DNA of 64,000 nucleotides from Paludibacteraceae bacterium. Lineage in GTDB: Bacteria; Bacteroidota; Bacteroidia; Bacteroidales; Paludibacteraceae. The DNA lies in assembly GCA_024399495.1 (NCBI GenBank), contig JAKSNY010000006.1:1-64000 (forward strand), written 5' to 3'. How positions within the stretch are numbered: the stretch's first letter is position 1; every line of letters starts with the position of its first letter. A program made the translations under genes and the position numbers. This document shows positions 3,263 through 42,104 of this stretch, in pieces. The notes beneath the pieces are model-generated. The model had not been told where the DNA came from and searched no databases. It worked only from the letters and a program-made list of their open reading frames with translations.

Positions 3263-6067
3263 ATGAGCGACATCATAAAATTCTACAAAGGAGAAGAGAC
3301 CGGAATAGTTCACGAGAACTACAACGATATCAATACATCCCTATTCAAAGACCAATACCTTAAGGCTTTGAGTGAGATAGGGACGTATCTAGATGAGGTT
3401 AAAAAGAACATGCAGCAAGGCAAACTTAATAGAATAATTAAGCAATGTCCTTATGTAGAGGATTATGATAGTGATTATGTAAGGAGCGAGTCCGCTGTTG
3501 ATTTAAATAACATATTTGCCTTTATAGGAGAGAGGGGAACAGGTAAAACCTCCTTTATGGATTCAATTGCCTATATGCTAAATCCATATATGCATGATAA
3601 TGGCAAAATGGACAAGAAAGAAAGTTTCTTAATAATTAAAGCCATTGACCCTACCACCTTTGATGATAAAACTAATATGTTGCAAGTGGTAGTAGGTGTA
3701 ATGTTTGAAGCCTTTAAGGAAAAAGTAAAACATCCAGAACCAATATATAGTGATAAAGGAGAAAATGAATTTAATAACAACAAACAAGAGTTATTAACGG
3801 CTTTCCAAAGGGTTAAAGACTGTATCAAGATAATAGTCAGACCCGACACTCTTAACACAGACGATGATAACATTGCACAACTTGCAGAAATGGCTTCAGT
3901 ATCTAAATTAGGAGAATTGGTGAAAGACCTTATAACGTCATATCTTAAATTCTTTAAACGAACAACATTAGTATTACAAATAGATGATATTGATTTACAG
4001 ACCAGATACGCTTATAAAATGGTGGAGCATCTGCGTAAATATTTTATGCATGATAATGTGTTGGTGCTTATGGCTGTAAAATTGGAGCAATTGTCAAAAG
4101 TCATAGAATTAGAGAACACCAAAACATTCAAAGAACTGATTGACACAAAACAGATTACACCATCTACCATATCAGAAATGGCAGAAAGGTATCTGTTAAA
4201 ACTCATTCCTGTAAATCATAGAATATTTATGCCTACGGCTGATGTGTATGCGGAAAGTGCGTTGGAATACTATGAAAGCAGAGAGACTAACAAACCAGAA
4301 AAAAATTGGACATCAGTAAAATATGCAATCACATCACTAATATATGACAGGTGCAGATTTTTATTCTATCATTCAAAAGGTGTAGTAAGTCCTATTGTTC
4401 CAAGAAACTTACGTGAATTGAGGCATTTGTTTGCCATGTTGTATAAAATGCAGCCTTATAACAAGAAATCACCTGATTTGAATAATAAAGTGTTGTTTCT
4501 TAATTATTTTAATTTCACATGGGTCAACAGTAACATTGCATCAGAAGATTACTCAATAGTAAACGATATCAGAAACATAAAAGATGCCGCCACCATAAAT
4601 AAGGTGGTGTTGCAATTGTTATGCAGAAAATATGAAAATATATTACCTAAAAATGAGGATATTCAAGGAAAAACAGATGCCAAGTCTAGGAGGGCAAAAG
4701 ATAGTATAGAAGAAGTAATATTAAGGATAATAGACGTTACCAATGCATCATATAACATTTCAATTGCTGATGTTTATGTAGTGCTAAATTATGTAAAGCA
4801 ACGCATAAGCAGCTTGAGTGATAGAATGCTCATTTTCTATATTGAATCATTCTACTCTATAAAACTTTACCAATATTATGATGAAATATCAGATACCAAT
4901 GAAAATAGTACTACTTCATTATTATTTCCCAATAAGTGTAAAGGGAAGGAAAAAAAATCAAAAAAAGAAATCGATGATAGTATAGTTAAATTAGAGATTG
5001 TTGATGGCTACAGCAATTATGAAGTATTAGCGGGTGGTAGTTTTATTAACACAGAGATAACAAAACTTACACCAGATGAACAAGATAATAGTGAATCACG
5101 AGATAGGAGAAGGATAGATTTCCAACGCTTAAAAGAACTTGCAAAAAAAGTGGCAGGTGAACCTATTAATAAAGATAATATTAATGAACTAAGATTAGTT
5201 GAGTTTTTTGCATTGTGTATATCTCAAACAGTTGAAGCAACAAATGAGAAGGCCAATTTGAAATATAGATCTTACAATGAATTATACTATAAAATACCCG
5301 ACAATTCTAAATATGGTTCTGCTTTATTTAACTTAGGTTCTTTCTTTTTTAACACTATTAATGTAAAAAGAGCGTATGAACGTCTAGCAGAAGGTTTGTT
5401 CAACAAAGCAGCAAATGCGCCTGATTTAAAAATTTCGAAAACTAAAGAAAAAAAGTCTATATCTTCTTTATATGAGGATTTGTTGAAATCTAGTAAAGAA
5501 TTAAGAAATAATAAATATTTACGGGAGCATGCATTACTTTCCTGCACTGCAATAAGGAATTTTGAAGTATATGAAACTTTTGTTCAATTTGTAGAATTTG
5601 ACAGATTAGATAGGTCAAAATCTAAATATAGTATTGAGAACCTTAAAAAATTCTTTGACAAGGTATCAAAATTCGTTATTAATAATTATGATAGAGATGT
5701 GGATAATGACATTCCATTTACTATCAACTTTAATTATGTCAAAGTAATAAGTGATGCTCTTAATATGTTTGACCCAAAAGAGTTTGAAAGAATTTTTAAT
5801 ATTGATACAGAATTATATGATAATAAAACATCCTTTGATATAGAAAGTATAATATTGACAGAACTTAATAAAGATGAATTTTCTTTGACGGTTTTGAGGG
5901 ACGCAGGAACTCGTACATTGCGAAAAACCAATAAGAAAGGAAGTGCTATTGAAAAGGAATGGAAGGGAATAGGATTCTTTGAGGGAGATATTAAGGGACA
6001 GAGAACAAGTCAAGGAATTGCCAGAATAATTCTAACAGCATTTAAGGTTCGCAATAACTTAAAGTAG
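3263..6067 (+). CDS. rdrA: RADAR-type ATPase RdrA (locus 1)
   Basis: 934-aa P-loop NTPase. Walker A is GERGTGKTS (residues 89-97); a likely Walker B is LVLQIDDIDLQ (DDID at 241-244). The rest is a long, mostly helical region with no catalytic motif I recognise. It is assigned as RdrA because it sits 3 bases before an RdrB-like adenosine deaminase, has a suitable size, and recurs in the same order at 34948. In known RADAR systems RdrA and RdrB act together during phage infection, and deamination of adenosine in RNA and of adenine nucleotides has been reported. Start: ATG before SDIIKFYKGEETGIVHE, a stretch nearly identical at the start of the second copy, which supports this start. Base composition is AT-richer than the housekeeping genes. 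Confidence 0.82.
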   Translation: MSDIIKFYKGEETGIVHENYNDINTSLFKDQYLKALSEIGTYLDEVKKNMQQGKLNRIIKQCPYVEDYDSDYVRSESAVDLNNIFAFIGERGTGKTSFMDSIAYMLNPYMHDNGKMDKKESFLIIKAIDPTTFDDKTNMLQVVVGVMFEAFKEKVKHPEPIYSDKGENEFNNNKQELLTAFQRVKDCIKIIVRPDTLNTDDDNIAQLAEMASVSKLGELVKDLITSYLKFFKRTTLVLQIDDIDLQTRYAYKMVEHLRKYFMHDNVLVLMAVKLEQLSKVIELENTKTFKELIDTKQITPSTISEMAERYLLKLIPVNHRIFMPTADVYAESALEYYESRETNKPEKNWTSVKYAITSLIYDRCRFLFYHSKGVVSPIVPRNLRELRHLFAMLYKMQPYNKKSPDLNNKVLFLNYFNFTWVNSNIASEDYSIVNDIRNIKDAATINKVVLQLLCRKYENILPKNEDIQGKTDAKSRRAKDSIEEVILRIIDVTNASYNISIADVYVVLNYVKQRISSLSDRMLIFYIESFYSIKLYQYYDEISDTNENSTTSLLFPNKCKGKEKKSKKEIDDSIVKLEIVDGYSNYEVLAGGSFINTEITKLTPDEQDNSESRDRRRIDFQRLKELAKKVAGEPINKDNINELRLVEFFALCISQTVEATNEKANLKYRSYNELYYKIPDNSKYGSALFNLGSFFFNTINVKRAYERLAEGLFNKAANAPDLKISKTKEKKSISSLYEDLLKSSKELRNNKYLREHALLSCTAIRNFEVYETFVQFVEFDRLDRSKSKYSIENLKKFFDKVSKFVINNYDRDVDNDIPFTINFNYVKVISDALNMFDPKEFERIFNIDTELYDNKTSFDIESIILTELNKDEFSLTVLRDAGTRTLRKTNKKGSAIEKEWKGIGFFEGDIKGQRTSQGIARIILTAFKVRNNLK

Positions 6068-6070
6068 GAT

Positions 6071-8554
6071 ATGGACAACCTCAGAAATGTTATAGAACTT
6101 CTGTTTGCCAAACGTAAAGTTGCGGAATTGTTAAATTCCGTTGACGCGTTAAGCAGGCATAACAGATATGAGGTTACAAGCGAGGATGAATTTAAGGAGA
6201 TATTTTTCAGAGAATATCCCAGATATTCTGGGAATCAACTGAAATCGCTCTTTGACATAACAAATGATGCTTGGTCAGAGAATGCAATATTGGATAACGG
6301 ACACGGAGCCAAGAATGTATTTAATGTAATAAGCAACCTGACAAGTCAAATGCTTGTTTCTGTGGGAGGCACACCATATTGCAGGTATGAAGAATACTTG
6401 CGTTGGAATGAAGCCAGTAAACTTATTGGAGAGGATATTTTGGTAACAAGTTTTCTTGCGTCTCTTGACTTTAAAGAGAACCTACAAAGAACAGATTTTG
6501 CATGGACACCATATATACTTACAACCAGTAAGGAACTAAAGGGTATAATGGAACACGGATTGTCTGAATTGCACAATCACATGAAAGGCTCTTCTCTGAT
6601 ATTCACATTGAATTGGCTTGCCGTTATGAATCACCCAAGAACATACGGCTCACGTCAATTTGAAATTCTAAAGAACTTTTATGGTGATTACAGAGAAATT
6701 CTGTTGGCTGCATTCTTACGTTCAGTGCTATATAAGAAAGTTAATGATGTTAGTGATTCTGAAATTGATAGATATCTTAATGACTTGTTAGCAGAAACAG
6801 ACAAGTTGCAGTATATCAATATGAATCTTAATGATGTCAAGAACTTTATTGACAGATTAAGAGATGATTCAACAAATGCTATAGACTATGCCATACCAAG
6901 CAGTATGCCAATGCATGCTGACACAGTGGATAGTAGAATTAATCTTATAGGAGAACGCAAGTTGCTATATCAGTGCTTCTCAAAAGTCAATAGAGAAACT
7001 GATATATTGTTTAATAGAATGTTTTACCTATACCTTATTATTAAGGCACAATTTAGGTTTGCGGTAATACAGGTTAATAAGGATATCGGTTTTGAAAACT
7101 TCATTTACTATGACAGCAAGAAAGCCGACTTTCTTAAAATGTTAGAGGAAAACACACTGTATAAAAAGGAGTTGGTAAAAGTTGGAATGAGGTTGGCAGT
7201 TCAAGATACATACGTAAAAAACATAGAATATAGGATTGCACCTGAGGATAATTCAGTGGAGTTGTATAACACTATTAAAAACACAGATAGTAATGCGGTC
7301 GCAAATATCAGTCATGGGTTCATTATTCACTTTATAAAGAAAGAGGATAAGAAACGGTACTATGAAGATAGAATTGAGAACGGATTAAGATGCAGAAACC
7401 AGGATGCCAGAGAGATGTATAGCAGGCAGGCAGATGATGTCAGACATCTGTTGGCAATGGGGAATACAAAAATCATTGGAGTTGATGCCGCTAACAGTGA
7501 GTTTTTCTGCCGTCCTGAAGTATTTGGACCAATATTCCGTAGATTGAGGCATACGCATAGAAATACAGATATAGACTATTTCAAAGAGTTGCCACCATAT
7601 AAACTTGGTTTCACATATCACGTAGGGGAAGATTTTTATGATGTGGTTGATGGTTTAAGAGCAATAGAAGAAGCAGATATATTCCTTAATCTAAGGAACG
7701 GAGACCGCATTGGACACGGAACGGCACTTGGCATAGATGTAAAACATTATTATGATGAAAAGTTCTATACAGTGGTAATGCCAAAACAAGTGTTGCTTGA
7801 TAATATGGTATGGTTGTTAAATAGAGTAAAACAATGCGGCATTCAAGATGATACAGGCTTTTTGTATGATGAGGTTGAATATATGTTCCATAAATTGTGT
7901 AAAGAAATTTTCAATAGGGAATATACTGTTCAAACATATATAAATGCTTGGCTGTTAAGAGGAGATGAGCCGTCATTATATCAGGCGTATGAAGAAGAGC
8001 CAGAAAGGAGTCGAATACTTGATATTTATCAGATAAATAAAAAAGACATAATCAATGAGGCTCGCAAAGATACAGAGGCAAGGGAGTTGTACAGAAATTA
8101 TCATTATGACACATTGGTCAAGAGCAAAGGTTCTAAATCAGAAGAATGGAAAATAAAATCAACACACAGAGCATCATTTGTTAGAATACTAAATGAGATT
8201 CAAAAGAAAATGCAAGAAGAGGTGGCATACAAGCATATATCAATAGAGTGCAACCCAACCTCAAACTTGCGAATAGGAAATATACCAAAATATGTAAATC
8301 ACCCAATAGTGAAATTCAACAACTATGGGCTTGAGCGTAACGATGGTAAGAGAGATTGGTCAGCACAAATTTCAGTAACAATTAATACTGATGATGCTGG
8401 CATATTTGCAACGTCACTTGAGAAAGAATTTGCCTTAATGGCATTGGCACTTGAAAAGGAGAGAGATGAAGATGGCAATCCAAAATACCAACAAGGCAGT
8501 GTTTATCGTTGGTTAGAGAATATTAGAGAAAACGCATTTGTACAAAAATTTTAA
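6071..8554 (+). CDS. rdrB: RADAR adenosine deaminase RdrB (locus 1)
   Basis: 827-aa adenosine-deaminase-like protein, more than twice the size of a housekeeping enzyme, as expected for RdrB. All metal and catalytic motifs of the family are visible: H168-x-H170 in LHNHMKGSS, H517-V-G-E520 (matching the HAGE glutamate), H549 in RIGHGTALG, and D774-D775 in NTDDAGIF. Large insertions separate the motifs. Known RdrB proteins form large ring or shell assemblies and deaminate adenosine nucleotides or RNA during infection. Starts 3 bases after rdrA and is followed 7 bases later by the next gene, so one transcript is likely. Intact active-site residues imply a working enzyme. Confidence 0.88.
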   Translation: MDNLRNVIELLFAKRKVAELLNSVDALSRHNRYEVTSEDEFKEIFFREYPRYSGNQLKSLFDITNDAWSENAILDNGHGAKNVFNVISNLTSQMLVSVGGTPYCRYEEYLRWNEASKLIGEDILVTSFLASLDFKENLQRTDFAWTPYILTTSKELKGIMEHGLSELHNHMKGSSLIFTLNWLAVMNHPRTYGSRQFEILKNFYGDYREILLAAFLRSVLYKKVNDVSDSEIDRYLNDLLAETDKLQYINMNLNDVKNFIDRLRDDSTNAIDYAIPSSMPMHADTVDSRINLIGERKLLYQCFSKVNRETDILFNRMFYLYLIIKAQFRFAVIQVNKDIGFENFIYYDSKKADFLKMLEENTLYKKELVKVGMRLAVQDTYVKNIEYRIAPEDNSVELYNTIKNTDSNAVANISHGFIIHFIKKEDKKRYYEDRIENGLRCRNQDAREMYSRQADDVRHLLAMGNTKIIGVDAANSEFFCRPEVFGPIFRRLRHTHRNTDIDYFKELPPYKLGFTYHVGEDFYDVVDGLRAIEEADIFLNLRNGDRIGHGTALGIDVKHYYDEKFYTVVMPKQVLLDNMVWLLNRVKQCGIQDDTGFLYDEVEYMFHKLCKEIFNREYTVQTYINAWLLRGDEPSLYQAYEEEPERSRILDIYQINKKDIINEARKDTEARELYRNYHYDTLVKSKGSKSEEWKIKSTHRASFVRILNEIQKKMQEEVAYKHISIECNPTSNLRIGNIPKYVNHPIVKFNNYGLERNDGKRDWSAQISVTINTDDAGIFATSLEKEFALMALALEKERDEDGNPKYQQGSVYRWLENIRENAFVQKF

Positions 8555-8561
8555 TATTAAG

Positions 8562-9083
8562 ATGAACAGAAGGAATAGAGATTTACGGGAGTTATCCATT
8601 AACATTATGGAAGCAATTAAAAATGGAAAACATTATTTAAGGTATCCCTTAGAATTAGAAGTATTACCAACAGATGTTTCAAAAGATACGAACCGTGAGA
8701 ATTTTCAAGCTGTTACAGAAGGCTTGAAGGAGTTAGGTATGTTGAATATAATGCCTACATCCTCAAAGGAAGATGTGTTTTTTATAACTAAGGAATGGGA
8801 AACGTTAATGAAAGATAAAAATGTTATTGAATCACTATCAAGAGTTCCTTGGATAATTCCTAATAAAATAACGCCAAATTGGGGAGAGGCATTTGATGAT
8901 TTAGTGGAAGTAGAAACAAGTTTTGTAACTAATCCAAAGAAAGTTAAAATGCTTGTTTATGACAATATACCGCGTATTAAGAAAGTTATAGACAGCCTTG
9001 ATAACAAACAAAAATACAATTTCTATGTTTCTCTCCAAAACCAGATGGAGCAAGAAGCATTAAAAGATGCTGAAGTTAAGTAA
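8562..9083 (+). CDS. Unknown 173-aa protein of RADAR operon 1
   Basis: I do not recognise this family. The frame is open from a TTG at 8538, but ATG at 8562 is preferred because it lies just after the rdrB stop (8552-8554). The product (MNRRNRDLRELSINIMEAIK...) is soluble, charged and mainly helical, with no signal peptide, membrane segment or obvious catalytic motif. Tight packing between rdrB and the large next gene argues for a joint role in the RADAR response, as an adaptor or regulator. It does not resemble the known RADAR accessories (Csx27-like RdrC, SLATT-type RdrD), which are membrane proteins. No trace was seen in the second locus. Confidence 0.75.
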   Translation: MNRRNRDLRELSINIMEAIKNGKHYLRYPLELEVLPTDVSKDTNRENFQAVTEGLKELGMLNIMPTSSKEDVFFITKEWETLMKDKNVIESLSRVPWIIPNKITPNWGEAFDDLVEVETSFVTNPKKVKMLVYDNIPRIKKVIDSLDNKQKYNFYVSLQNQMEQEALKDAEVK

Positions 9084-9087
9084 CACA

Positions 9088-11367
9088 ATGCCAAAACAAG
9101 ATACTAAATATTGGTTACATAGAATTAGTTGGGAGTGGCAGGTGTCATATCCGTTGCTGGATAGGGGATTCTTGTCCATAGGATTTTGTGATTTTGGCAC
9201 AAAGGAATCACTTGAAAAACTTAGAAATGATTTTGAAGGTACTATTGAGGCACAGTGGGGAAGTTATGGAAGAAATAGATTCTATTTGAAAAATTTTGTA
9301 TTTAGGGGTAAGGAAGATAATAGAGGAATGCAGAAAGGAGACTATGTTGTAGTTCCCAAAAGAGGCACATTTGATATATATGAAATTGTAGGTGAAGAAG
9401 TTATTACTTCTGCTGATATATTGGATACTGTTAAAAATAAAACTAATGATGCAGAAATCAAGACTTCAGATGGTAAAGTTGTGAGCTTAAATAATGATGG
9501 ATATTTAGTTGCAGACAAAAAGATTATTGACCTTGGCTTTTTTTGGGAAGTAGAATTGAAAGTTTCAGATATTCAAAGAAGCAAATATGCTGGTAATAAA
9601 CTTGGATCTGCACTAAGATTTTTAGGAACAAATTTCCAATTAGATGAAGAGGCTTCCAAGTTAGTTGGAGAAATATTGAAAGCAGAAGAGGGGAAAGAAA
9701 TAGGTAAACCTAAAGAGAGTAAATTAGAGTTAGAAATTAATCCAGGGGAAACGGTAAAGTACGTTGAAGACTATCTAACAAATATTGGTGCAGAAAATAT
9801 CTATAAGCATGATAGTGATGAATGCCACAAATCAAAGGTTGACGTTATAGCCTCTTTTTCAAAAATAGATTCTACCATATATGTTGTAGTGCAAAAGAAC
9901 GATAATAATGTTAAGGATTGGATAAGGGCTGAGATCAATGAATTTAAAAAGCATCATTCTGGTGGCGAAGACTCCGCTTTATTGTGGCTGATTTCTAATG
10001 AAAGATATTTCCAGCAATCCATAAAAAATGACGCTGGAATTGGATTAAAGGTAGATAGTAGGATGGATTTTGAAGAGGTGTATCTAAATTTATTACAATC
10101 AAATGAAACAGGAGATGAAGATAAAATTTACGAGTCTATTTTGAAAGATATTCTAAACAAGACAAAAAAGGCAATACCAGATAGTAGTACTCGCTTAACA
10201 GGAGTTGAGGGTGTGCAATATAAATTGTTTAGGTATAATGGAAAAAAAGGAGAGGATGCCATTGTTTATCCAATAGTGTTTGAATTACAGAACATAAAAT
10301 ACATAAGAAAGTATATTCAAACATATATAGGAATGAACAAGACTAAATATGGTATTGTGGCGTATGGGGAATCTTTTACATTATGTGATGCCAAAAGCAA
10401 TAATATTTTCACAACATCTGATATTCAACAGATTCTTGATATAATTGATAATGGAAAATCAGTTGAAGAGCTTATAAAACAGCAACGTGTAGATGCAATA
10501 AAGAGAATCCTTTCATCAATTGATGCTAACATTTTTGACAAAGAATGTGAATCTTTTGGTAATAATCATTACAGATTCAAAAGTCAAAAGAACGAGGATA
10601 AATTTTGGAAAAGACTGTTGAACAAACAAAGAATAGACGGAAGAGAAATTGATTCTCAACAGCCAAATACAAAAATTTGTCGTTACACCTCTTTGCAGTC
10701 ATTATTTGAGATTCTGAAAAACGGAACATATAGGATGCAGGGATTGGTGGGTATGAATGATATATCAGAAGTTGATTATGTTGATGAATATTGTGGTATT
10801 AATAGTTCAATAGACCAAGCCAATGAGATATTTATAACATCATGTAGCCCATTGGATAAAAAAGATGATTTGGCAATGTGGCGATTGTATGCAGATGAAG
10901 CCAAGGGGGTATGTTTAGAATTTTCAATTGATAAAAACATAAATAAACATTTCATAGTCCATAAAATTGCTTATGCACTTGATAAAGGACCTGATTTTAG
11001 GCTTGATATTATCAAGAGACTTATAGCCAATGGTTTTGTCTTTAACAGAATGAATGTGTGGAAACACTTCTTTAAGGCTCCAGAATACATAATGGAGGAT
11101 GAAGTGAGAGTGCTATTTGAGCGTACAATGAATAAAAAGAGACAATGGATAAAAACAGATAAGAATAGTATTATTAACCCAGCAGTTGATTTTGAAATTA
11201 AGAAAGGTAAGTATCCACTGAGCTTAGAGAAAATCATATTAGGTCCTAAATGTCCAGAGAAAGGTGTGAATATGAAGCAAATAGAAATTTTGATTAAAGA
11301 TAAAAAATGGTTTCAAAATTTTGATAAGATTACTGTTACAACCTCAAGCATAGATAATTACAGATAA
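9088..11367 (+). CDS. PUA/EVE-like + DUF2971 protein of RADAR operon 1
   Basis: 759-aa multidomain protein. The first ~150 residues (KYWLHRISWEWQVSYPLL, GFLSIGF, then MQKGDYVVVPKRG) resemble the PUA/EVE-like N-terminal modules of some restriction-type proteins. A central part (~215-340, with VDVIASF and TIYVVVQK) has a faint restriction-endonuclease-fold look but no clean PD-(D/E)XK triad. The C-terminus (~528-759) is a DUF2971 domain: ICRYTSLQSLFEIL, FITSCSP, DDLAMWRLYADEAKGVCLEF. The frame is open from 9067, but ATG at 9088 is chosen: it lies 4 bases after the previous stop, and a relic with the same MPKQ beginning follows the second rdrB. Probably an accessory effector or sensor; the function is not established. 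Confidence 0.75.
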   Translation: MPKQDTKYWLHRISWEWQVSYPLLDRGFLSIGFCDFGTKESLEKLRNDFEGTIEAQWGSYGRNRFYLKNFVFRGKEDNRGMQKGDYVVVPKRGTFDIYEIVGEEVITSADILDTVKNKTNDAEIKTSDGKVVSLNNDGYLVADKKIIDLGFFWEVELKVSDIQRSKYAGNKLGSALRFLGTNFQLDEEASKLVGEILKAEEGKEIGKPKESKLELEINPGETVKYVEDYLTNIGAENIYKHDSDECHKSKVDVIASFSKIDSTIYVVVQKNDNNVKDWIRAEINEFKKHHSGGEDSALLWLISNERYFQQSIKNDAGIGLKVDSRMDFEEVYLNLLQSNETGDEDKIYESILKDILNKTKKAIPDSSTRLTGVEGVQYKLFRYNGKKGEDAIVYPIVFELQNIKYIRKYIQTYIGMNKTKYGIVAYGESFTLCDAKSNNIFTTSDIQQILDIIDNGKSVEELIKQQRVDAIKRILSSIDANIFDKECESFGNNHYRFKSQKNEDKFWKRLLNKQRIDGREIDSQQPNTKICRYTSLQSLFEILKNGTYRMQGLVGMNDISEVDYVDEYCGINSSIDQANEIFITSCSPLDKKDDLAMWRLYADEAKGVCLEFSIDKNINKHFIVHKIAYALDKGPDFRLDIIKRLIANGFVFNRMNVWKHFFKAPEYIMEDEVRVLFERTMNKKRQWIKTDKNSIINPAVDFEIKKGKYPLSLEKIILGPKCPEKGVNMKQIEILIKDKKWFQNFDKITVTTSSIDNYR

Positions 11368-11504: not shown

Positions 11505-13265
11505 ATGGAAACAAAGAATTTATTAAAAAGTTTAAAAAGCAGGTTAGGCGGGATGCTATGCCTGTTAGTGTTACTAACATTTGCACAAGGTGCGTGGGCA
11601 GAATATTGGATTCTTGAGAATGGTGGTTTTGATATAAAGCTTAACCTTAACGGAACCAATTCATGGATATTCAATGGTTCTACAAAGAGAGATTCTCCAA
11701 GTGAGAATTATAAAGATTATTCTGCTAATTCTGCTACTGAAATTGTGTGGACTGAGTTTAGTGTAAAAACTGGGTGTAATGACAATTGGCAACACCAGTA
11801 TCTGTTTATATTTTACAGGGTAAGTTCTGATCATTCAGGTGATTTTACAAAATATGTGTATAATTCAGGATCAATACATAAAAATGAGGATTATGAATAC
11901 TATAAGAATAATTTTAACTTGGACATACTGGCCTTGGCATCAGATAAGGGTATTAATGGAGATTTTTATTTTGACTATTATTTTGGTATAGATCAAGGAA
12001 ATACTAATCCTTATAGATATGCACCTGGGCATAGCTCTCAAAATGGATACTATAGCATGAAATTTAAAAGATCTTCTTGTCCCACACCTACTTTAACCAG
12101 TGTAACTGGTGATACTGATGTGGAGCAAGGCTCACAACACACATATACTGCAAATGGAGGGTCGCCAGGAACTGGAGCCACGATAAGCAGATATAATTGG
12201 ACATTGCCTGATGGATGGAGCGGAACTTCAACCACCAATACCATTACTGCTACAGTAGGTAATAGTGCAGGAAGCAAAACAATTAAATGTACAGTTACAA
12301 ACTCATGCGGCTCAACCAGTGCGGAAAAATCATTGAGCGTAAACGTTGCTAACAAGTGGGAAATGATGGGTCTTGGTGGTTATTGTAGTTGGACGCCAGG
12401 TAGTGGATGCCCATTTACAGGAGATGGAGATGTTGTAACATATACTAAGGAAATTAATAATACTGGAGATAAAGAATTTAAATTATACTTTGATACTTGG
12501 TACGGCGACACCAATGAGGGTACTATTACACGTAATAATTGTACAGACTGGACAATGGTAGATGCAAGTCAAAAAAATAATACCAAAATTAACGTGGATA
12601 TCGCTGGCACTTACGTGTTTAGTTTAAACAAAACCACAAAAAAACTATCTGTCACATATCCTACTTCTTGCACTCCACCAACAATCACCTCCCACCCAAG
12701 CACAGATGCTAAAACCTATACACAGGGAGAGACTGCAACGGCATTAAGCGTTACGGCAAGCGGAACCGCTCCGCTGTCTTATCAGTGGAAACAGAGTTTG
12801 TCAGCAGATGGTTCTTACGAAAATGTTACGGGAGGTACTGGTGCTAATACAGCAACTTACACTCCATCTACCGATAATATTGGTAAACTATATTACAAAT
12901 GTTATGTTTCCAACTCTTGTGGCAATGTAACAAGTAACGCATCTGGTGCCATTACGGTAAATGCAGGCTCTGACATCACCGTCACCCCTGCTTCCCCTAA
13001 GGCATACGAGGTTATAACACTAAGTACACGGAGTGGTGGCGATATGACCTGGTCTAAGACCGCTGACAATGATAATGATAATGATAATGATAATGCTTAC
13101 TTTGTAAATGCTGACGGAACAACAACCAGCGGTCCTACTACGCCAACAAACAGCATAAAATTCAAGGCACCTGCAGGCAGTTACACCATTACAGCCACAC
13201 CAGCGACTGGTGATAGCAATGAAATAATTTTCACCGTCGGTCCTGATTCAGATGATTGTAACTAA
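11505..13265 (+). CDS. Secreted PKD/Ig-like protein, paralogue of the gene at 42482
   Basis: 586 aa. An N-terminal signal peptide has basic residues, then MLCLLVLLTFAQGAWA and likely cleavage before EYW. Residues ~35-190 form a domain shared with the protein at 42482 (WIFN, HRYLFxxYRVSSDHSGxF, GDFYFDYYFGID, PYRYAPG). Then come a PKD-like segment (~195-280), a small beta domain and Ig-like repeats. Bases 13065-13094 encode five Asp-Asn pairs as an in-frame hexamer repeat. The protein ends in an acidic Cys tail (DSDDCN), echoed in two other proteins here. Likely a surface or extracellular adhesion-type protein; the ligand is unknown. An A-rich 137-base leader precedes it and a strong terminator follows. 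Confidence 0.75.
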   Translation: METKNLLKSLKSRLGGMLCLLVLLTFAQGAWAEYWILENGGFDIKLNLNGTNSWIFNGSTKRDSPSENYKDYSANSATEIVWTEFSVKTGCNDNWQHQYLFIFYRVSSDHSGDFTKYVYNSGSIHKNEDYEYYKNNFNLDILALASDKGINGDFYFDYYFGIDQGNTNPYRYAPGHSSQNGYYSMKFKRSSCPTPTLTSVTGDTDVEQGSQHTYTANGGSPGTGATISRYNWTLPDGWSGTSTTNTITATVGNSAGSKTIKCTVTNSCGSTSAEKSLSVNVANKWEMMGLGGYCSWTPGSGCPFTGDGDVVTYTKEINNTGDKEFKLYFDTWYGDTNEGTITRNNCTDWTMVDASQKNNTKINVDIAGTYVFSLNKTTKKLSVTYPTSCTPPTITSHPSTDAKTYTQGETATALSVTASGTAPLSYQWKQSLSADGSYENVTGGTGANTATYTPSTDNIGKLYYKCYVSNSCGNVTSNASGAITVNAGSDITVTPASPKAYEVITLSTRSGGDMTWSKTADNDNDNDNDNAYFVNADGTTTSGPTTPTNSIKFKAPAGSYTITATPATGDSNEIIFTVGPDSDDCN

Positions 13266-34664: not shown

Positions 34665-34701
34665 ATAGCAAACAAACACTTAACAAACTAACTTAATTAT
34701 T

Positions 34702-34770
34702 ATGAGAAACAATCACAACCCAAATTTCCACGCAGGAGGGCGTCTAATAGCAATCAGAACACATAGTTAG
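34702..34770 (+). CDS. Possible 22-aa leader peptide
   Basis: ATG to TAG frame in the rdrA2 leader (MRNNHNPNFHAGGRLIAIRT...), with its stop at the base of the first hairpin. It could be a leader peptide or chance. It has no counterpart seen before RADAR 1. Confidence 0.3.
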   Translation: MRNNHNPNFHAGGRLIAIRTHS

Positions 34771-34947
34771 GATATACCGTTCACACAGAAAGGTATGTCC
34801 GTTGCATCACATCCACAATGAGTGTGGGTAATGTTAGTTGCATCCCTGACTAACTTTACTTACGTGCGTTATTGCCTAACTGTCACGAGCAAGAATCACC
34901 GAAGGTAATGAATCTCATAATAAATAAATGAAAATAAAACCCATATC

Positions 34948-37599
34948 ATGGCAGAACCAATTAAATTCTACAAAGGTGAAGAGACCGGAATAGTTCACGA
35001 GAGCTACAAGGAGAGAGAGACCTCTTTATTCAAAGACCAATATGACAAGGCTTTGAGTGAGATTAATGCGTATTTAGAGGAGGTAGATAATTGGTCAAGA
35101 AATCATACAGTCGTCAATGAATTTGATATAAACAACATATTCGCATTCATAGGCGACCGTGGTTCGGGGAAATCATCCTGCATGGAGTCTGTAATTAATA
35201 TGCTATTCTCCGCAGAAAGATATAATTTTCAAGAAAAGTTTCCAAAAATCTCACAAACTAAATTCTTACGTTTCAGCAAAATAGATCCGACGCTGTTCAA
35301 TAGAAAAACTAATCTTTTGGAAGTCACTATTGGTGCATTATATTCCAGTTATGTGGATGGATGTAGAAATGACAGAATAAAGACTAGTGATGAATTAAAG
35401 CCAGAATTGGCTAATGCTTTTCAGGAGTTAAGGTTGTCTATACAGTGTTTGTCAGATGATAATTTACTCAACAGTGGTTTAAATAGTATTTCACAATTAT
35501 CGGACTTGGCAACAGTAGCAAAGGTTAACAACAGATTTGCTGATTTGATAAATAATTATCTTAAGTTTTTTAACAAAGATGTTATTGTAATAGGAATAGA
35601 TGACATTGATTTACAGAGTGATTACGCATTCCAAATGGTGGAACATTTGAGAAAATACTTTATACAAAGCAACGTGATTGTATTGATATCATTCAAAATG
35701 GAGCAACTACTTAGTGTAATAGAACTTGAGCAAACAAGAAAGTATATGCCGTTGTATGATACAGAAGCAATAACATCTGATGCTATCTATGATATGGCTA
35801 TCAAGTGTTTGCTGAAACTAATTCCATCTCATCATCGTATATTTTTGCCTCAAGTAAGAGCTTACGTGAATGAAAATATAGAATATTACAGGGATAGAAT
35901 AGATTTAGAGCCAAAAACAAAGGCGACACCAATAAAGTATGCGATTACTGAATTGATATATCAAAAATGCCGTTTCCTGTTTTACCATACAAAAGGAGAG
36001 GTCAGCCCTATTGTACCGCAAAATCTACGTGAACTTAGACACCTTTACGCAATGCTTGTTGAAATGGAGGATTATGACAACAATAATCCAAACTATGGTA
36101 ACAAATTGCAATTCCTTCAATATTTCTACAATACGTGGGTGGAAATGAATATTGTGGCAAGCGACTATAAAATTATACAGAATATTTTAGGTATAAGTGA
36201 TGTTGCGTCTATAAACAAGGGTGTTATTAAGCAACTAAACATTAAATATTCAGGACTTCTTAACGGAATGTATGAGGAGGTATTAACAGAGAAGAATTCG
36301 TCATACAACATATCTGTCGCAGATGTTTTTACTATTGTTGATTATCTAAAGAGAAGGGTAAGTAGCAGGAATGACAAGATGCTGTTATTTTTTATTGAAA
36401 CATATTACTCCATTAAACTATATGAATATTATGATGAACTGACAGATAAAATAGGCATAGGAGGAGTTCAAATAACAGATAACGAAGAAACGCTTGATGA
36501 AAGACAGCATAAAGTAAAAGAAAGTATAGTAAAAAGAGAGGTGGTTGATGGTATTAGCAATTATGAGATTCTTGTTGGTGGAAAATTTATAAATACAGAT
36601 GAATATCAAATGCTTCCTAAAGAGGCACAAACAGAAACTTCAAGAGCGAGAAGACTTATAGATTTGGAAAAACTCAGTGAGGTTGCAGAACAACTTTTAA
36701 ATGGGGATTGTAGTAGTGGTTTTACAATCCAGACTATTGAAATATTTGCATTATGCATCTCAAGAGTCGTTGATTCTGTCAAAGCAGGCAATGTAAATTA
36801 CAGAACAGGGAATGCATTGTACTATAAGGATGAAGGTGGTGAGGACGTAACCAAGCAATATAAATATGCTGAGTTTGATTTAGGGGCATTCTTCTTCAAT
36901 GTGGTTAATATAAAAAGGGCATACGATAGAGTTCACCCCGAATTATTTGAGTTTTCAAAGACTAATGGCACACATTCTCTATATAAGGCACTATTAAGAA
37001 CAAGTAAAGACTTAAGAAATTTTGTCAGATACACCGAGGAACATGCTTTATTGTCCTGTGCTGCAATCAGAAATTTTGAGATTTTATCTGACTTTGTTTC
37101 TTTTATGCAATATGATAGAATGCATTGGCAAGGTTCATCATCAAATCTTCAAAATATACTTGCATTTTTTCAAAAGGTTGCTGAATATTATATTGGATTT
37201 TATAGTTACACACTTGAAGATGGAATAGAGGAACCAGACCATATTGAATTCTCGTATATAAAGTGTATTGTTGATGTTTTTTTAGAGTTAAAAGAACGAA
37301 ATTCTGATTTTGGTGAAAAGGCATTTGACAGCATTTTTGTTATAAAAGAAGAAGTTAATGAATTATCATCTTTTGACGTGCAACAGATTTTGCAACTGTT
37401 TGGGAGATATCCGATACAAATAAAGACTTTGAGAGATAGAGTCTCTAAACGATGTAAACCGGTATTTGACAATAATGCTGAAGCAAAGGAAGATTGGCCA
37501 TTCTTTTTAAAAAAATATGGAAATCTTAATGATAAGGTAGATAAGTTTAGGACAGAGGAAATTCTAATGAAGTTCAAATCGATACACGCTCTAAAGTAA
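34948..37599 (+). CDS. rdrA: RADAR-type ATPase RdrA (locus 2)
   Basis: 883 aa. Walker A GDRGSGKSS (69-77); Walker B VIVIGIDDIDLQ (DDID at 218-221). The start (KFYKGEETGIVHE, then SLFKDQYxKALSEI) is nearly identical to copy 1 even at DNA level, while the rest is clearly diverged but alignable throughout (e.g. VSPIVPxNLRELRHL, EHALLSCxAIRNFE). It directly abuts rdrB2 with no gap. It appears intact. Its role is as for locus 1: the ATPase partner of the RdrB deaminase in anti-phage defence. Confidence 0.82.
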   Translation: MAEPIKFYKGEETGIVHESYKERETSLFKDQYDKALSEINAYLEEVDNWSRNHTVVNEFDINNIFAFIGDRGSGKSSCMESVINMLFSAERYNFQEKFPKISQTKFLRFSKIDPTLFNRKTNLLEVTIGALYSSYVDGCRNDRIKTSDELKPELANAFQELRLSIQCLSDDNLLNSGLNSISQLSDLATVAKVNNRFADLINNYLKFFNKDVIVIGIDDIDLQSDYAFQMVEHLRKYFIQSNVIVLISFKMEQLLSVIELEQTRKYMPLYDTEAITSDAIYDMAIKCLLKLIPSHHRIFLPQVRAYVNENIEYYRDRIDLEPKTKATPIKYAITELIYQKCRFLFYHTKGEVSPIVPQNLRELRHLYAMLVEMEDYDNNNPNYGNKLQFLQYFYNTWVEMNIVASDYKIIQNILGISDVASINKGVIKQLNIKYSGLLNGMYEEVLTEKNSSYNISVADVFTIVDYLKRRVSSRNDKMLLFFIETYYSIKLYEYYDELTDKIGIGGVQITDNEETLDERQHKVKESIVKREVVDGISNYEILVGGKFINTDEYQMLPKEAQTETSRARRLIDLEKLSEVAEQLLNGDCSSGFTIQTIEIFALCISRVVDSVKAGNVNYRTGNALYYKDEGGEDVTKQYKYAEFDLGAFFFNVVNIKRAYDRVHPELFEFSKTNGTHSLYKALLRTSKDLRNFVRYTEEHALLSCAAIRNFEILSDFVSFMQYDRMHWQGSSSNLQNILAFFQKVAEYYIGFYSYTLEDGIEEPDHIEFSYIKCIVDVFLELKERNSDFGEKAFDSIFVIKEEVNELSSFDVQQILQLFGRYPIQIKTLRDRVSKRCKPVFDNNAEAKEDWPFFLKKYGNLNDKVDKFRTEEILMKFKSIHALK

Positions 37600-40020
37600 A
37601 TGGACAATGTACGTAATGTAATAGAAATGCTGTTTGCTGAGCGGGATGTAAGAGAAGTGCTTGATTCTTACAACGAGTGTATAAGGGGAGGGAATGGTAT
37701 AAAGGATGATGTATTTAAGAAGTTATTTTTAAATAAATATTTCCATTATTCAGGTAATCAACTGAACTCGCTCTTTGACATAACAAATGATGAATGGGTT
37801 TCAAAACCATGGGGTTTTATGAACCTCAGAGAACAAAAAAGTGTGTTCAATCTATTGGTTTATGCTTCTAAGCAGATGTTGATGTGTATATCAAACGCTC
37901 CGTATTGTAGGTATTCTCAATATTTGCGTTGGAATGAACTTACGAGGTATATAGGTGAGGATTTGTTGGTTACAGCCTACTTAGCGGCACGAGATATTGC
38001 CAATAATTATGATGGTAGAAATAGTTGGGAATGGGGAAGGGGCATACTATCAACTAATGTTTTTTTAAACGAATGTTTTAAAAAGGGATTGAGTGAGTTG
38101 CATAGTCATCTTTATGGTTCTTCTTTGATTTTTACCGTTAATTGGTTGGCTTTAATGAATAATCCAGAGTATATCAATGAAGATAATATAAATAAATTCA
38201 CACAACTTGGTATCGATTTAAAACTCATATTTTTAGCATCATTTTTAAGAGCGATGCTTTATAAAATGGTAAATAGATTTGAAGATAAACCAATTGATTC
38301 TGTTTCAGGACTTTGGTTTAAAAAATCCAATAAATATCAGTGGATAGACATATTAATTGAAAAAGTGCCCAATTTTATTAATAGACTAAAAAGTGATGGG
38401 AATCCGATGTCTAAAGATTATTGTATAGACTATGCTATTCCTAAGGGGTTAACAAGTTGCACAAGGTGTCTTGTTGGTGAAAGAAGACTTTTGTACATGT
38501 GTTTCAAAAGAGTGTTCACAAAATGTGACGATAAATTTTCCTATATGTTTTATTTGTATCTGTTAATCAAATCTAAGTTTAGAAAAATAATGATACAGGA
38601 AAACAAAATTATAGGCTTTGAAAATTTTCAGACTTTTAATTGTAACTGTAGATTGTACAAAAGATTATTGACAAATGATGAAAGAGTGAATGCTTGTTAT
38701 GATAAGGAACTGGAAAGTATAGCAATTAATATAGAAACTAATGGGCTAAATGTAAAGTATATAGAGCACAGAGTTTCACCACAAACAAACATACAATATA
38801 TTAGTAGTTTTATTGAGAGTGATAGAGATAAACATAAATACATATTGCATTTTTTTAAAAGTAAAGAGAGAGATGGTTTTTATAGACACTGTGATTTGCG
38901 AGAAATGGTTTTGAATCAAGCATATGAAATGGAGAGTGATATAGAATCAGTGGTCTCACAAATAGTCGGTGTTGATGCGGCAGGCAACGAGTTTAATTGC
39001 AGACCAGAAGTGTTCGGTCCTGTTTTTAGAAAATTAAAATCTTGTGGACAGGGAAGGTTGGGTAGAACATATCATGTTGGAGAAGATTTTTACGATATTG
39101 TGGATGGTCTAAGAGCGGTGGATGAGGCATTGAGGTTTTTGGAACTTGAGAAAGGGAACAGAATAGGGCACGGAACGGTGCTTGGAATAGACGCACATCG
39201 TTATTATGAAAACATCCATTATACGGTGGTAATGCCTAAACAAGTGTTATTGGATAACTTGGCTTGGATACTATATAAAATTGGATACAATAAACGATGT
39301 CTCATTCCAATGTATGCACATGAAATGTATAAGAAGTGCGAACAATTATTCAAGGAAATATATGGAGGTACATTTAATTTGAGAGTATATATTAGGTCGT
39401 GGCATTTGAGAGGCGATTATCCCGAATTATACAAATCAGGTAGGTTTGAATATACGGATTTAGGTCAGCAAGATCAATTCAAGTTTAAGGATGAAAATTA
39501 TGTCAACAAAGCAAGAGAAGATTCAAATGCAGTAAATCTTTATTATAAGTATAACTTTTGCTCAAATGTTAGAGAAAATGGTTGTAAACCCGTAGAGTGG
39601 AAAATTGGTGTAAAATACCGTTCATCGTTTGTTGAAATCTTGGAGATAGTGCAAAAAATGATGTTAAAAGAAATTAAACATAAAGGTATAGCCATAGAGT
39701 GCTGCCCGACATCAAATTTAAGGATAGGAAACATTCCAACATATAGTCAGCACCCTATTGTTAAATTCAGTAGTAAAGGATTAAGGTTAAGAGGAATTAG
39801 ATGTTTGTGCAGTTGTGGAAATCCAAATATTACAGTATCAATCAACACTGATGATGCAGGAATTTTTGACACATCACTTGAAAAGGAATATACACTTATG
39901 GCGATAGCTTTAAGCAAGGAAGTGGATAAAAGTGGCAAACCAAAATATAATATAGAAAGTATTTATAAATGGTTGGACAACATAAGAGAGAACGCATTTA
40001 TACAGAAGTTTGGAAAATAA
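37600..40020 (+). CDS. rdrB: RADAR adenosine deaminase RdrB (locus 2)
   Basis: 806 aa. All deaminase motifs are retained: H168-x-H170 (LHSHLYGSS), H492-V-G-E495, H524 (RIGHGTVLG) and D751-D752 (NTDDAGIF). Collinear with copy 1, with the strongest similarity at the two ends (PYCRYSQYLRWNEL, GVDAAGNEFNCRPEVFGP, IECCPTSNLRIGN) and a more diverged middle. The ATG follows the rdrA2 stop immediately, so coupled translation is likely. It is followed by a repeat and an accessory-gene stub rather than the two genes seen at locus 1. Confidence 0.87.
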   Translation: MDNVRNVIEMLFAERDVREVLDSYNECIRGGNGIKDDVFKKLFLNKYFHYSGNQLNSLFDITNDEWVSKPWGFMNLREQKSVFNLLVYASKQMLMCISNAPYCRYSQYLRWNELTRYIGEDLLVTAYLAARDIANNYDGRNSWEWGRGILSTNVFLNECFKKGLSELHSHLYGSSLIFTVNWLALMNNPEYINEDNINKFTQLGIDLKLIFLASFLRAMLYKMVNRFEDKPIDSVSGLWFKKSNKYQWIDILIEKVPNFINRLKSDGNPMSKDYCIDYAIPKGLTSCTRCLVGERRLLYMCFKRVFTKCDDKFSYMFYLYLLIKSKFRKIMIQENKIIGFENFQTFNCNCRLYKRLLTNDERVNACYDKELESIAINIETNGLNVKYIEHRVSPQTNIQYISSFIESDRDKHKYILHFFKSKERDGFYRHCDLREMVLNQAYEMESDIESVVSQIVGVDAAGNEFNCRPEVFGPVFRKLKSCGQGRLGRTYHVGEDFYDIVDGLRAVDEALRFLELEKGNRIGHGTVLGIDAHRYYENIHYTVVMPKQVLLDNLAWILYKIGYNKRCLIPMYAHEMYKKCEQLFKEIYGGTFNLRVYIRSWHLRGDYPELYKSGRFEYTDLGQQDQFKFKDENYVNKAREDSNAVNLYYKYNFCSNVRENGCKPVEWKIGVKYRSSFVEILEIVQKMMLKEIKHKGIAIECCPTSNLRIGNIPTYSQHPIVKFSSKGLRLRGIRCLCSCGNPNITVSINTDDAGIFDTSLEKEYTLMAIALSKEVDKSGKPKYNIESIYKWLDNIRENAFIQKFGK

Positions 40021-40043: not shown

Positions 40044-40129
40044 GGTCTGTAAACAGTCTGAGCGTCCATCCCGTCATTCTGAGCGAAGCGAAGAATCTCT
40101 TGATAACGAAGCGAGACCATTTACAGACC
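40044..40129. repeat. Interspersed repeat (short form) inside an inverted repeat
   Basis: GTCATTCTGAGCGAAGCGAA then GAATCTC at 40073-40099. It is bounded by 10-bp arms GGTCTGTAAA (40044-40053) and TTTACAGACC (40120-40129), which can fold into a long hairpin after rdrB2. Confidence 0.65.
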
Positions 40130-40168
40130 GAGGGTAAAACTTTGAATAAAATTTGAATCAATAACATA

Positions 40169-40201
40169 ATGCCAAAACAAGAGCCTAAAATAGCAGAATA
40201 A
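40169..40201 (+). pseudogene. Stub resembling the DUF2971 accessory gene start
   Basis: ATGCCAAAACAAGA and a following CTAAA match the start of the accessory gene at 9088 (MPKQ), then a stop comes after ten codons. Nothing recognisable of the rest follows. It suggests that locus 2 once had the same large accessory gene. The match is short. Confidence 0.5.
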
Positions 40202-40293: not shown

Positions 40294-41004
40294 TTATTTT
40301 AAATATTCCTTATTATCTATAAAATTCGTTAAAAGAGACATTACATTATCCAAAAATTCATGTATAATTGTATAATCACTCTTAATGTCGCTGATTACAA
40401 TATTTGAGCCACAATCTACAAATGATGCTTCACCATGGGCAAGTCTATTCCTATAATCTTTAATTCGTTTCATCGCTAATTTTAGATCAGTAGTGTTGTT
40501 ACAATACTTCCCTACACATCCCAAATTATTAAGTATATGCAATGTCTTTTTATAATCAAGATTGCCTGAAATTCCAAATTTTAAATTTTCAAATTCAATA
40601 TTTTTGTGTTGAAATATTGTATCAAGCAATTCCATCCCTAGAACTGTCAATTTTCCTATTGTATTCTTATTACCAAAGATAGATTCTAAATATTTTTTTT
40701 TGTAGTTGTCTTTAAGCTTTTCTAATTCAATCTGCTCGTCATTGATTGAATCAACTATGCTATTAACAACCAAATTTATAGTAGATTCAATTAGGTTGTA
40801 TAAAACAAGATAAGCAGTAGATCTTAAAATTTTTTGTTCATCATTAGTTATGCAATGTTTCATTTCTACCCCATCGAATGATTCGCCTTTAATTTCTATC
40901 TTTTTTTGATAGGCGATATTATCAATAAATGTGAGCAAATCAAAAAAGTTATCCACATCTTTACATCTGTTTTGGAATTCTATTTCAAAAGAGTGAAACG
41001 TCAT
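40294..41004 (-). CDS. HEPN protein, MAE_28990/MAE_18760-like
   Basis: 236 aa. A helical protein with the HEPN nuclease motif R185-N-x3-H190 (YRNRLAHGEASF). The surrounding pattern (TAYLVLYNLIESTINLV; AHGEASFVDCG) fits the MAE_28990/MAE_18760 HEPN family, predicted RNases. Its start overlaps the stop of the DUF262 gene by 4 bases; this two-gene pairing is known from other genomes. Intact R and H suggest an active RNase toxin or effector. It converges with rdrB2. Confidence 0.78.
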   Translation of the reverse strand: MTFHSFEIEFQNRCKDVDNFFDLLTFIDNIAYQKKIEIKGESFDGVEMKHCITNDEQKILRSTAYLVLYNLIESTINLVVNSIVDSINDEQIELEKLKDNYKKKYLESIFGNKNTIGKLTVLGMELLDTIFQHKNIEFENLKFGISGNLDYKKTLHILNNLGCVGKYCNNTTDLKLAMKRIKDYRNRLAHGEASFVDCGSNIVISDIKSDYTIIHEFLDNVMSLLTNFIDNKEYLK

Positions 41005-42104
41005 AACTTTAAAAAATTGAATTTTGCGTAGTCTATTCTTTCCAACAGTTTTTGAGGGGTATGTGTTCTATACCTGCCAGATAGCATTGTAAAAAATGGT
41101 GATGTTTGACTTTTATTAAGCCTAGACCAGCTTATAGACTTTGGCTTCAGATTTGGATTTTCTCTTAAAGCTAATAAGGCACCAATAGAGATTGCTTCAA
41201 AATATGGTTTTGACACACCTACAACTTTTGGTGCTTTGGCAAATCCTTGATTTGGAAAATTTTCATCAATAAATTTAATCATCATTAAGAATTCTTTTTC
41301 TTTGGCAGACATATCTTCTGTATTTGCTTCTTCGTTTTTAATTGATAGGTATTGATTAAGATATTCAGCAACACTAGAATTTTTCAAATTTGAACCGTTT
41401 TTTAGTTTGAAATTTGGGTATGTCTCTGAGAAAGCAAAGAAACGCAATATCATTTCTTCTTCTTCTCGTCTATCTTTCATATACACAGACTCGGGGCATA
41501 ACTTAATAAACAGTTTATTTTTTGCTAAACGTATAATAAAATCAGTAAATGGACCTTTGTATATGCCACGTCTGGTTTCCATTGGTAACAAAGCAACACC
41601 ACTGGTGTTAATTCTATCAAACATTTCATTCCTAATTTCAGGAGTAGTGTATTCGTTTAAAACAATCATTCTCATTGAAATGTTTTTAAACTTTCTTTGT
41701 CTTGCGTTGCTAAAATCAGTAAATTTTAATCCATTTAGTTTTGTTAATTTTTTTAGTCCGCATAGAGCTAGTTCTCCGTTGACAAAAGCATTTAAAGTTC
41801 TTACTCGTTGCGACCCATCTACTATTTCAAATCGTCCAGATTTGTCTTCAGCAACAAAAATTAATGGAACAGGAAGCCCCAATATCAGACTCTCAATAAA
41901 TCTTGATTGTTGAGAATCGGTCCAAATAAATTCACGTTGATAATCAGGAACATATAATTCATTGGTGTCGTTTTCCACTCCCTTATTGTATTTGTCCGCA
42001 TAGTATTCAATAGTGAATTCCCGTATGTCATATTTAACACTTTTTTGTTCGGATTCAATCTGTTCTTCTAATGAGGAATAATCTTTTAGTTCCATAGTAT
42101 TCAA
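41001..42104 (-). CDS. DUF262 (GmrS-like) ParB-fold protein
   Basis: 367 aa. DUF262 N-terminal motifs: VPDYQREFIWTDSQQSRFIE (~52-71), LGLPVPLIFV and the nucleotide-handling signature IVDGSQRVRTL (DGSQR at 96-100). In type IV GmrSD systems this domain uses NTP to drive cleavage of modified phage DNA; here there is no GmrD part, and the partner is a HEPN protein instead. First gene of a two-gene minus-strand unit. Together they form a plausible stand-alone defence or toxin module beside RADAR 2. Confidence 0.82.
   Translation of the reverse strand: MNTMELKDYSSLEEQIESEQKSVKYDIREFTIEYYADKYNKGVENDTNELYVPDYQREFIWTDSQQSRFIESLILGLPVPLIFVAEDKSGRFEIVDGSQRVRTLNAFVNGELALCGLKKLTKLNGLKFTDFSNARQRKFKNISMRMIVLNEYTTPEIRNEMFDRINTSGVALLPMETRRGIYKGPFTDFIIRLAKNKLFIKLCPESVYMKDRREEEEMILRFFAFSETYPNFKLKNGSNLKNSSVAEYLNQYLSIKNEEANTEDMSAKEKEFLMMIKFIDENFPNQGFAKAPKVVGVSKPYFEAISIGALLALRENPNLKPKSISWSRLNKSQTSPFFTMLSGRYRTHTPQKLLERIDYAKFNFLKL

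Follow-up and report, generated by a model that had tools for sequence, protein, structure and literature searches.

Do the two genes packed behind rdrB in a divergent RADAR operon belong to that defence system, or do they merely share its neighbourhood? The question is raised by a stretch of 64,000 nucleotides from a Paludibacteraceae bacterium (assembly GCA_024399495.1, contig JAKSNY010000006.1, positions 1 to 64,000; hereafter the window), in which positions 3263-11367 are filled by four genes on the same strand, namely rdrA, rdrB, orfC and orfD. In this study, the four genes were compared with family models and solved structures, and the surroundings of rdrB and orfD were surveyed within the genus and beyond it. 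The locus is a genus-restricted, modular RADAR variant with predicted soluble accessories, and it is new relative to the RADAR subtypes in print.

A divergent rdrAB pair and the genes packed behind it

The four genes are as follows:
3263..6067, + strand: rdrA1, divergent RADAR AAA+ ATPase of 934 amino acids (NCBIfam NF041743, PDB 8hr7 and 8fnt, Walker motifs)
6071..8554, + strand: rdrB1, divergent RADAR adenosine deaminase of 827 amino acids (NCBIfam NF041744, PADLOC RdrB, PDB 8fnv)
8562..9083, + strand: orfC, orphan of 173 amino acids with its ATG at 8562 (family searches without assignment)
9088..11367, + strand: orfD, 759 amino acids with its ATG at 9088, comprising an N-domain, a degenerate Mrr-like domain and DUF2971 (Pfam, PADLOC, alignments)

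The original prediction had recognised RdrA and RdrB by their motifs, and this was borne out by matches in NCBIfam, PADLOC and PDB as well as by the motifs, though both proteins are divergent. RdrA1 matched the NCBIfam RdrA model NF041743 at E 5e-22 with 78 bits (equivalog cut-off 600) and, with the window protein as the sole query, the solved RdrA structures 8hr7 (E 4.9e-9) and 8fnt (E 5e-9). RdrB1 matched the NCBIfam RdrB model NF041744 at E 3.5e-44 with 151 bits (equivalog cut-off 800), PADLOC RdrB at E 1.2e-32 and the solved RdrB 8fnv at E 5.3e-24. Moreover, the Walker motifs of RdrA and the HxH, HVGED, GH and DD motifs of RdrB are conserved in the respective alignments. The locus thus displays the marks of RADAR: an AAA+ RdrA with Walker A and B, an RdrB with the deaminase residues, kinship of both with solved structures, and an rdrA that adjoins rdrB on one strand. 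Both scores fall far under the equivalog cut-offs, which indicates divergence, and by homology RdrA1 and RdrB1 are RADAR proteins that stand outside both NCBIfam equivalog groups.

The coordinates of the open reading frames and a reading of the junctions gave intergenic gaps of 3 bases between rdrA and rdrB, 7 between rdrB and orfC and 4 between orfC and orfD; the sizes of 173 and 759 amino acids and the latter two gaps had been given correctly beforehand. The G+C content is 0.315 in rdrA, 0.357 in rdrB, 0.318 in orfC and 0.321 in orfD (0.386 in the window), so composition does not separate orfC and orfD from rdrA. An Rfam search of the window and of three related loci (L017-L019; loci and genomes carry L and G numbers throughout) returned zero RNA family matches. 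Upstream of rdrA there is a short, conserved reading frame. It reads MRNNHNPNFHAGGRLIAIRTHS* in the second rdrAB copy of the window (34680-34955) and MKNNHNPNFHTEGRLIAIKTHS* in L017 (600-898), and a related frame that lacks an ATG lies at 3070-3270, ahead of rdrA1. This frame is possibly a leader peptide.

The products of orfC and orfD are predicted to be soluble from a reading of their sequences. For orfC, no Pfam, NCBIfam or PHROGs family was found, its sole PADLOC match was insignificant (13.6 bits), and its best match among solved structures had an E of 0.16. Besides itself, no relative was detected in 393 genomes of the order, in phages, in plasmids, in one viral-contig scan or in 106 locus records; other collections were not searched. 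Every other orfD locus examined, RADAR-linked ones included, is without orfC. We infer that orfC encodes a lineage-specific partner, whose role would be putative.

Recurrence of orfD in the genus and anatomy of its product

Sixteen genomes of the genus (the present one and 15 others) were searched with three kinds of query: RdrB (within a set of 61 genomes), orfD and, at the DNA level, the 3' ends of two rdrB genes. Divergent rdrB was present in G000, G002 and G003, and G010 keeps an 85-base rdrB tail, 95-98% identical to that of L017, L020 and L021, ahead of an orfD-type pair (L044). Matches of the orfD type were found in exactly these four genomes, and the 12 others had neither an rdrB coding match nor orfD, the matches in G001 and G012 being confined to a dispersed repeat that is found in the spacer of L020. 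The Fisher p for co-occurrence of rdrB and orfD was 0.0005, or 0.007 with G010 counted as lacking rdrB, values that overstate independence because the association sits in four related metagenome-assembled genomes.

Seven divergent loci were found through rdrB, including copy 1, described above, and copy 2, also in the window. A same-strand gene follows rdrB in six of the seven at -11 to 91 bases (7 in copy 1, 9 in L017, 16 in L018, -11 in L019, 91 in L020 and 9 in L021), and orfD-type sequence lies behind rdrB in five. The genes behind rdrB, here called its cargo, are orfC and orfD in copy 1, a relic of the orfD start in copy 2, an orfD 16 bases behind rdrB in L018 (its frame runs back over rdrB, and its position was placed by a separate reading), a C-half gene followed by an N-domain gene in L019, where orfD is present as two genes, and an N-domain within a protein of 365 amino acids in L020. 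Both the N-domain and DUF2971 are carried by three of the seven loci (copy 1, L018 and L019). At the other two loci, L017 and L021, an MBL-fold gene lies 9 bases behind rdrB. L044, an eighth locus, was found through orfD, and its orfD-type pair stands behind the 85-base relic of the rdrB tail. The spacer between rdrB and cargo in L020 and L044 contains a genome-dispersed repeat, so that only the 85 rdrB-coding bases of the relic count. This short repeat (TCATTCTGAGCGAAGCGAAGAATCT-like; about 2008-2073 in L020) occurs at many sites in G000, G001, G002, G003, G010 and G012, also between rdrB and cargo.

The seven loci make up a clade of the RdrB tree (96/96), and nested within it is a subclade that holds the MBL loci and L020; the tree does not settle how L018, L019 and the remaining loci branch. 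The two MBL loci are not sisters, L021 pairing with L020, and thus the MBL gene was either gained twice or lost once. Since these loci are nested, parsimony suggests that an orfD-type protein was probably the ancestral 3' occupant in the genus. The orfD copies are 27-50% identical to one another, and the rdrB copies are 46-62% identical to copy 1. Judged by these identities, the orfD copies are as diverged as the rdrB copies or more so, and they appear old relative to one another rather than recently shuffled. Two canonical rdrB copies inside the genus, the second copy of L017 (with 381 bases of room on its 3' side) and L022, stand outside the divergent set. L022 has the orfD pair of L044 on the 5' side of its rdrAB and none 3' of rdrB. 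Behind unrelated genes, at 9988-10346, L026 holds the remains of a canonical rdrB; what is left is the 3' part, 94-95% identical to L017, and at this place L017 carries a complete canonical rdrAB.

The second divergent pair of the window, at 34948-40020, had not been mentioned in the original prediction. Its features are as follows:
34948..37599, + strand: rdrA2 of the second divergent RADAR (open reading frame; 44% identity to rdrA1)
37600..40020, + strand: rdrB2 (open reading frame; 46% identity to rdrB1)
40125..40201, + strand: probable relic of the orfD start 3' of rdrB2 (ATG at 40169, reads MPKQEPKIAE*)
40294..42104, - strand: HEPN_MAE_28990 and GmrSD_N/DUF262 genes, the current neighbours behind rdrB2 (Pfam)
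42482-44689: relative of the surface gene described below (reading of open reading frames)

When the 76-base relic stretch was compared with 968,557 bases, it hit, apart from itself, three places: the start of orfD in L044 (E 4e-13), that in copy 1 (E 5e-4) and, as a weak match, the L020 spacer (E 0.004).

Three parts were distinguished in orfD:
9088..9702 (approximate), + strand: N-domain, or 'YWLHRIS' domain (alignment; Pfam of fusion partners)
9760..10122 (approximate), + strand: Mrr-like domain (alignments; Asp kept, QxK lysine replaced)
10876..11112, + strand: DUF2971 core, PF11185 (Pfam; PADLOC PDC-S31)

The protein had been labelled 'PUA-like/DUF2971'. The second half of that label holds, for DUF2971 scored 24.3 bits against a Pfam gathering score of 22, and orfD matched PADLOC PDC-S31 at E 1.7e-7; the first half found no confirmation, as the N-domain had no Pfam match up to E 0.1. 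The resemblance of the N-domain to a PUA/EVE-like reader is putative. Its motif pattern is 'YWLHRIS...GDxVVVP...IYEI', and elsewhere it is fused to Mrr_cat (L060, L061), Fic (L062, L063; by a Pfam run on L063) and AAA_21 (L064, L065); given such varied partners, it behaves like an interchangeable reader. The N-domain and DUF2971 trees are weakly resolved with long branches; in the former, four RADAR-linked N-domains group together (77/88), and that of L020 falls outside them. In the Mrr-like domain, the RADAR-linked forms of copy 1, L018 and L044 have all lost the lysine (VVVQ, VKVQ and VQVN) and retained the Asp, and the free relatives in L060, L061 and L105 all keep the QxK lysine (TQAK, AQVK and VQIK). 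Mrr_cat (PF04471) gave no Pfam match in the orfD of the window or in its L018 relative. The Mrr-like domain was not recognised in L019 or L020, and L020 is also without DUF2971. Against solved structures, orfD gave no match at E 1, and relatives of it were absent from phages and from three viral-contig scans, with one DUF2971-only match in plasmids.

The slot behind rdrB

These data led us to propose that the locus is a divergent RADAR with an accessory slot 3' of rdrB, and that orfD acts as an auxiliary sensor or effector coupled to RdrAB, a reading that we hold to be evenly poised between right and wrong. RdrAB would act as in other RADARs, by nucleotide deamination. Invading nucleic acid would be bound, and not cut, by the reader-like domain at the N-terminus and by the Mrr-like domain that lacks the lysine, and DUF2971 would deliver or relay a response beside the nucleotide deamination by RdrB. 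The slot itself holds SLATT or VanZ-family proteins in some other RADARs and predicted soluble defence proteins in this genus. In favour of coupling, orfD and divergent rdrB or its relic co-occur exactly within the genus, the orfD copies are old, the genes lie packed together, and the RADAR-linked forms have lost the nuclease lysine. Furthermore, a SLATT gene comes next after rdrB, with an 8-base overlap, on the Aureibacter plasmid pAT1, and a VanZ-family gene lies 72 bases behind rdrB in Cetobacterium, which indicates that the spot right behind rdrB holds accessories elsewhere too.

Several observations weigh against coupling, besides the relatedness of the four genomes. A search upstream of rdrA1 revealed no consensus Bacteroidota -7 motif, which leaves the presumed co-transcription of the four genes without promoter support. 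In copy 2, the rdrA2 and rdrB2 frames are open though orfD has been reduced to a relic. Both AlphaFold models are of low confidence, with pLDDT values (predicted local distance difference test) of 42.5 and 34.1, and the N-domain part of the orfD model lies below 50. The genus boundary also counts here. A new subtype carrying both genes had been predicted, and the neighbour survey of rdrB homologues upheld recurrent linkage for orfD in the genus alone (five of seven loci, plus L044); orfC has no relative and was linked nowhere else, and outside the genus an orfC or orfD match 3' of rdrB was found at 0 of 19 readable loci (E 1e-3, 106 records). Conversely, orfD domains were found at 11 loci outside the genus that have no rdrAB in the stretch examined, and in G778 rdrB and the DUF2971 gene lie on separate contigs. 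Coupling is thus weakened by the absence of orfD behind rdrB outside the genus, by relatives of orfD without RADAR and by the interchangeable slot.

A readable locus had at least 1 kb of sequence 3' of rdrB, and the rdrA beside each of the 19 was read from position and size. Twelve are of the divergent type or nearest to it (L028, L029, L030, L031, L045, L046, L047, L085, L086, L101, L090 and L091) and seven are canonical (L035, L087, L088, L089, L092, L094 and L095), with close kin among them (L045/L047, L085/L086 and L088/L089). They came from genome and viral contig scans, from 393 order, 296 phylum and 140 family genomes, which are samples of larger groups, and from plasmids. Loci with less than 1 kb 3' of rdrB (L033, L034, L048 and L049), L032, which ends inside rdrB, the plasmid matches H7 and H8, and the two canonical copies of the genus were left out. 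An rdrAB without a close same-strand gene behind rdrB is common. Proteins like orfD were encoded in 7 of 392 other genomes of the order (E 1e-8), at eight loci, L059-L066, in whose stretches of 4.6 to 18 kb rdrAB was not seen; none of the seven genomes was among the rdrB matches of the order search. The 11 loci are these eight together with a Segatella copri plasmid (L093), G778 (L104) and G727 (L105). Another genus of the family has a solitary rdrAB (L101 1694-8458) and a separate DUF2971 gene (L104 5596-11541), and each of them lies near a gene for a very large InlB-repeat protein. On pRLN3 of Rhizobium leguminosarum (L092 8550-13354), rdrB and a presumed rdrA are followed 875 bases on by adenylosuccinate synthetase and then by a metallophosphoesterase gene. 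In a genome of the same class (L086 3555-7874), rdrAB is followed by genes read as PLD-like, 158-amino-acid, McrB-like and McrC-like.

The main rival holds that the interval between rdrB and a surface gene is a defence hotspot, which orfC and orfD entered independently, by recombination at the rdrB 3' end, without acting together with RdrAB. This explanation is possible, and we regard it with some doubt. The surface gene is as follows:
11505..13265, + strand: gene for a PKD-domain surface-type protein ('METKNLL' family, our own label), the 3' border of the cargo (Pfam; reading of open reading frames)

L020 and L021 share one genome yet carry unrelated genes behind rdrB. Their rdrB sequences are 83-88% identical at about 480-600 bases before the L020 stop; identity then rises to 97-100% for a stretch of about 420 bases that ends about 60 bases short of that stop, and beyond it the two differ completely. 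The L020 frame runs about 18 codons past the end of the shared sequence. L018 contains 27 bases of the rdrB tail a second time, as an exact copy that lies 4 bases after the orfD stop (L024 9041-9067, the same place) and reads in frame into the next open reading frame (123 amino acids). Bracketed by two rdrB tails, this orfD looks inserted behind rdrB, although such a copy was seen in L018 alone (1 of 15 rdrB loci tested) and not in copy 1. The gene run behind the L018 orfD also includes an HD-domain protein (L024 9798-11825; PADLOC dGTPase match, 3e-9).

The MBL-phosphoesterase-HATPase set that precedes the surface gene with RADAR in L017 has a similar counterpart without RADAR in L077; independent systems can thus occupy the slot, a further point against coupling. 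In L074, a surface gene of this type is preceded by genes read as DUF262 and AAA, and HEPN and GmrSD genes now stand where copy 2 has a mere relic of orfD. Such gene sets support a defence hotspot and are the strongest argument for mere cohabitation, to which the occurrence of orfD without rdrAB in L044 and at the 11 loci of other genera may be added. The exact co-occurrence of orfD with divergent rdrB or its relic in the 16 genomes, the age of the orfD copies and the position of a cargo gene close behind rdrB on the same strand speak against it. The DNA searches with the rdrB 3' end strengthened both co-occurrence and exchange, and they left our probabilities unchanged. The leader of the 'METKNLL' gene had 4, 4, 6 and 2 matches in G000, G002, G003 and G010, and 2, 3, 1 and 1 of these, respectively, are situated 3' of the cargo of RADAR or of L044; one match in G003 is the rdrA leader of L017, and the surface gene of L019 is not among the matches. 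A short frame, MKxRILFRSLIT* or near it, lies ahead of METKNLL genes in L017 (11405-11620), L020 (4580-4830), L021 (4900-5170) and L022 (16290-16500).

Coupling and exchange can also be combined. RADAR may be a platform with an exchangeable bay, in which recombination at the conserved rdrB 3' end swaps sensor or effector modules and a nuclease-dead orfD tells RdrAB which invader to answer. The modules may include SLATT, VanZ-like, nuclease-dead reader-DUF2971 and MBL proteins and a reader fused to a PLD-like part. We consider this scheme unlikely as a whole.

It is clearly improbable that orfC and orfD form a self-contained, toxin-antitoxin-like abortive pair, orfC controlling orfD, that merely shares the RADAR promoter. 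The distance of 4 bases between the two genes, the entry of DUF2971 in PADLOC as a candidate single-gene defence family (PDC-S31) and the orfD relatives of other genera that are not beside rdrAB would suit such a pair. However, orfC is missing from all other orfD loci examined, which means that orfD-type proteins do not need it. Finally, the accessories might hold the toxicity of RdrAB in check instead of contributing to sensing or killing; this is suggested by operon position alone and is hardly credible, because in copy 2 rdrA2 and rdrB2 have stayed open although just a relic of orfD is left, and rdrAB commonly lacks a close same-strand follower.

Comparison with known systems

With a series of related RADARs within one genus that differ behind rdrB, deletions and swaps could be used to test what the accessories do; the series includes a copy that has lost orfD but for a relic, an orfD with a duplicate of the rdrB tail behind it, and a genome with two different cargos. 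The same series would offer a first experimental entry to the function of DUF2971 and of the N-domain, which elsewhere has Mrr, Fic and AAA partners. To our knowledge, the trigger of RADAR has not been established, and the swappable 3' genes may help to show how RADAR is triggered or extended.

The standalone rdrAB RADAR was reportedly described by Gao et al. in 2020. The window locus resembles it in the AAA+ region of RdrA, in the deaminase motifs of RdrB and in its adjacent genes in the same order; unlike it, the window locus scores far below the NCBIfam cut-offs and has two extra genes packed behind rdrB. Standalone, Csx27-associated and SLATT-associated subtypes are described (PMC7699616), in agreement with the earlier statement that the known accessories are Csx27-like and SLATT proteins, and in other RADARs an RdrA heptamer is docked on an RdrB dodecamer, with deamination of ATP and dATP and phage defence (PMC9994260, Duncan-Lowey et al. 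2023). No RADAR with DUF2971 or another soluble accessory was found in the literature searched, which was not exhaustive; the one paper there that names DUF2971 is an unrelated genome annotation.

The SLATT- and Csx27-associated RADARs share with the window locus an accessory directly 3' of rdrB. However, orfC and orfD match no such family, the packed run holds no further gene, both products are predicted soluble, and orfD carries DUF2971 and an Mrr-like domain. In its C-terminal domain, orfD is akin to the DUF2971 proteins (PF11185; PADLOC PDC-S31), but in front of this domain it carries a reader-like N-domain as well as a degenerate Mrr-like one, and it sits behind rdrB. Closest in architecture at the N-terminal side are the fusions without RADAR in L060, L061 and L105, where an Mrr-type domain likewise comes after the N-domain (in L060 and L061, Pfam identifies it as Mrr_cat); the RADAR-linked proteins differ from them in that the lysine of QxK is replaced, by Q, Q and N.

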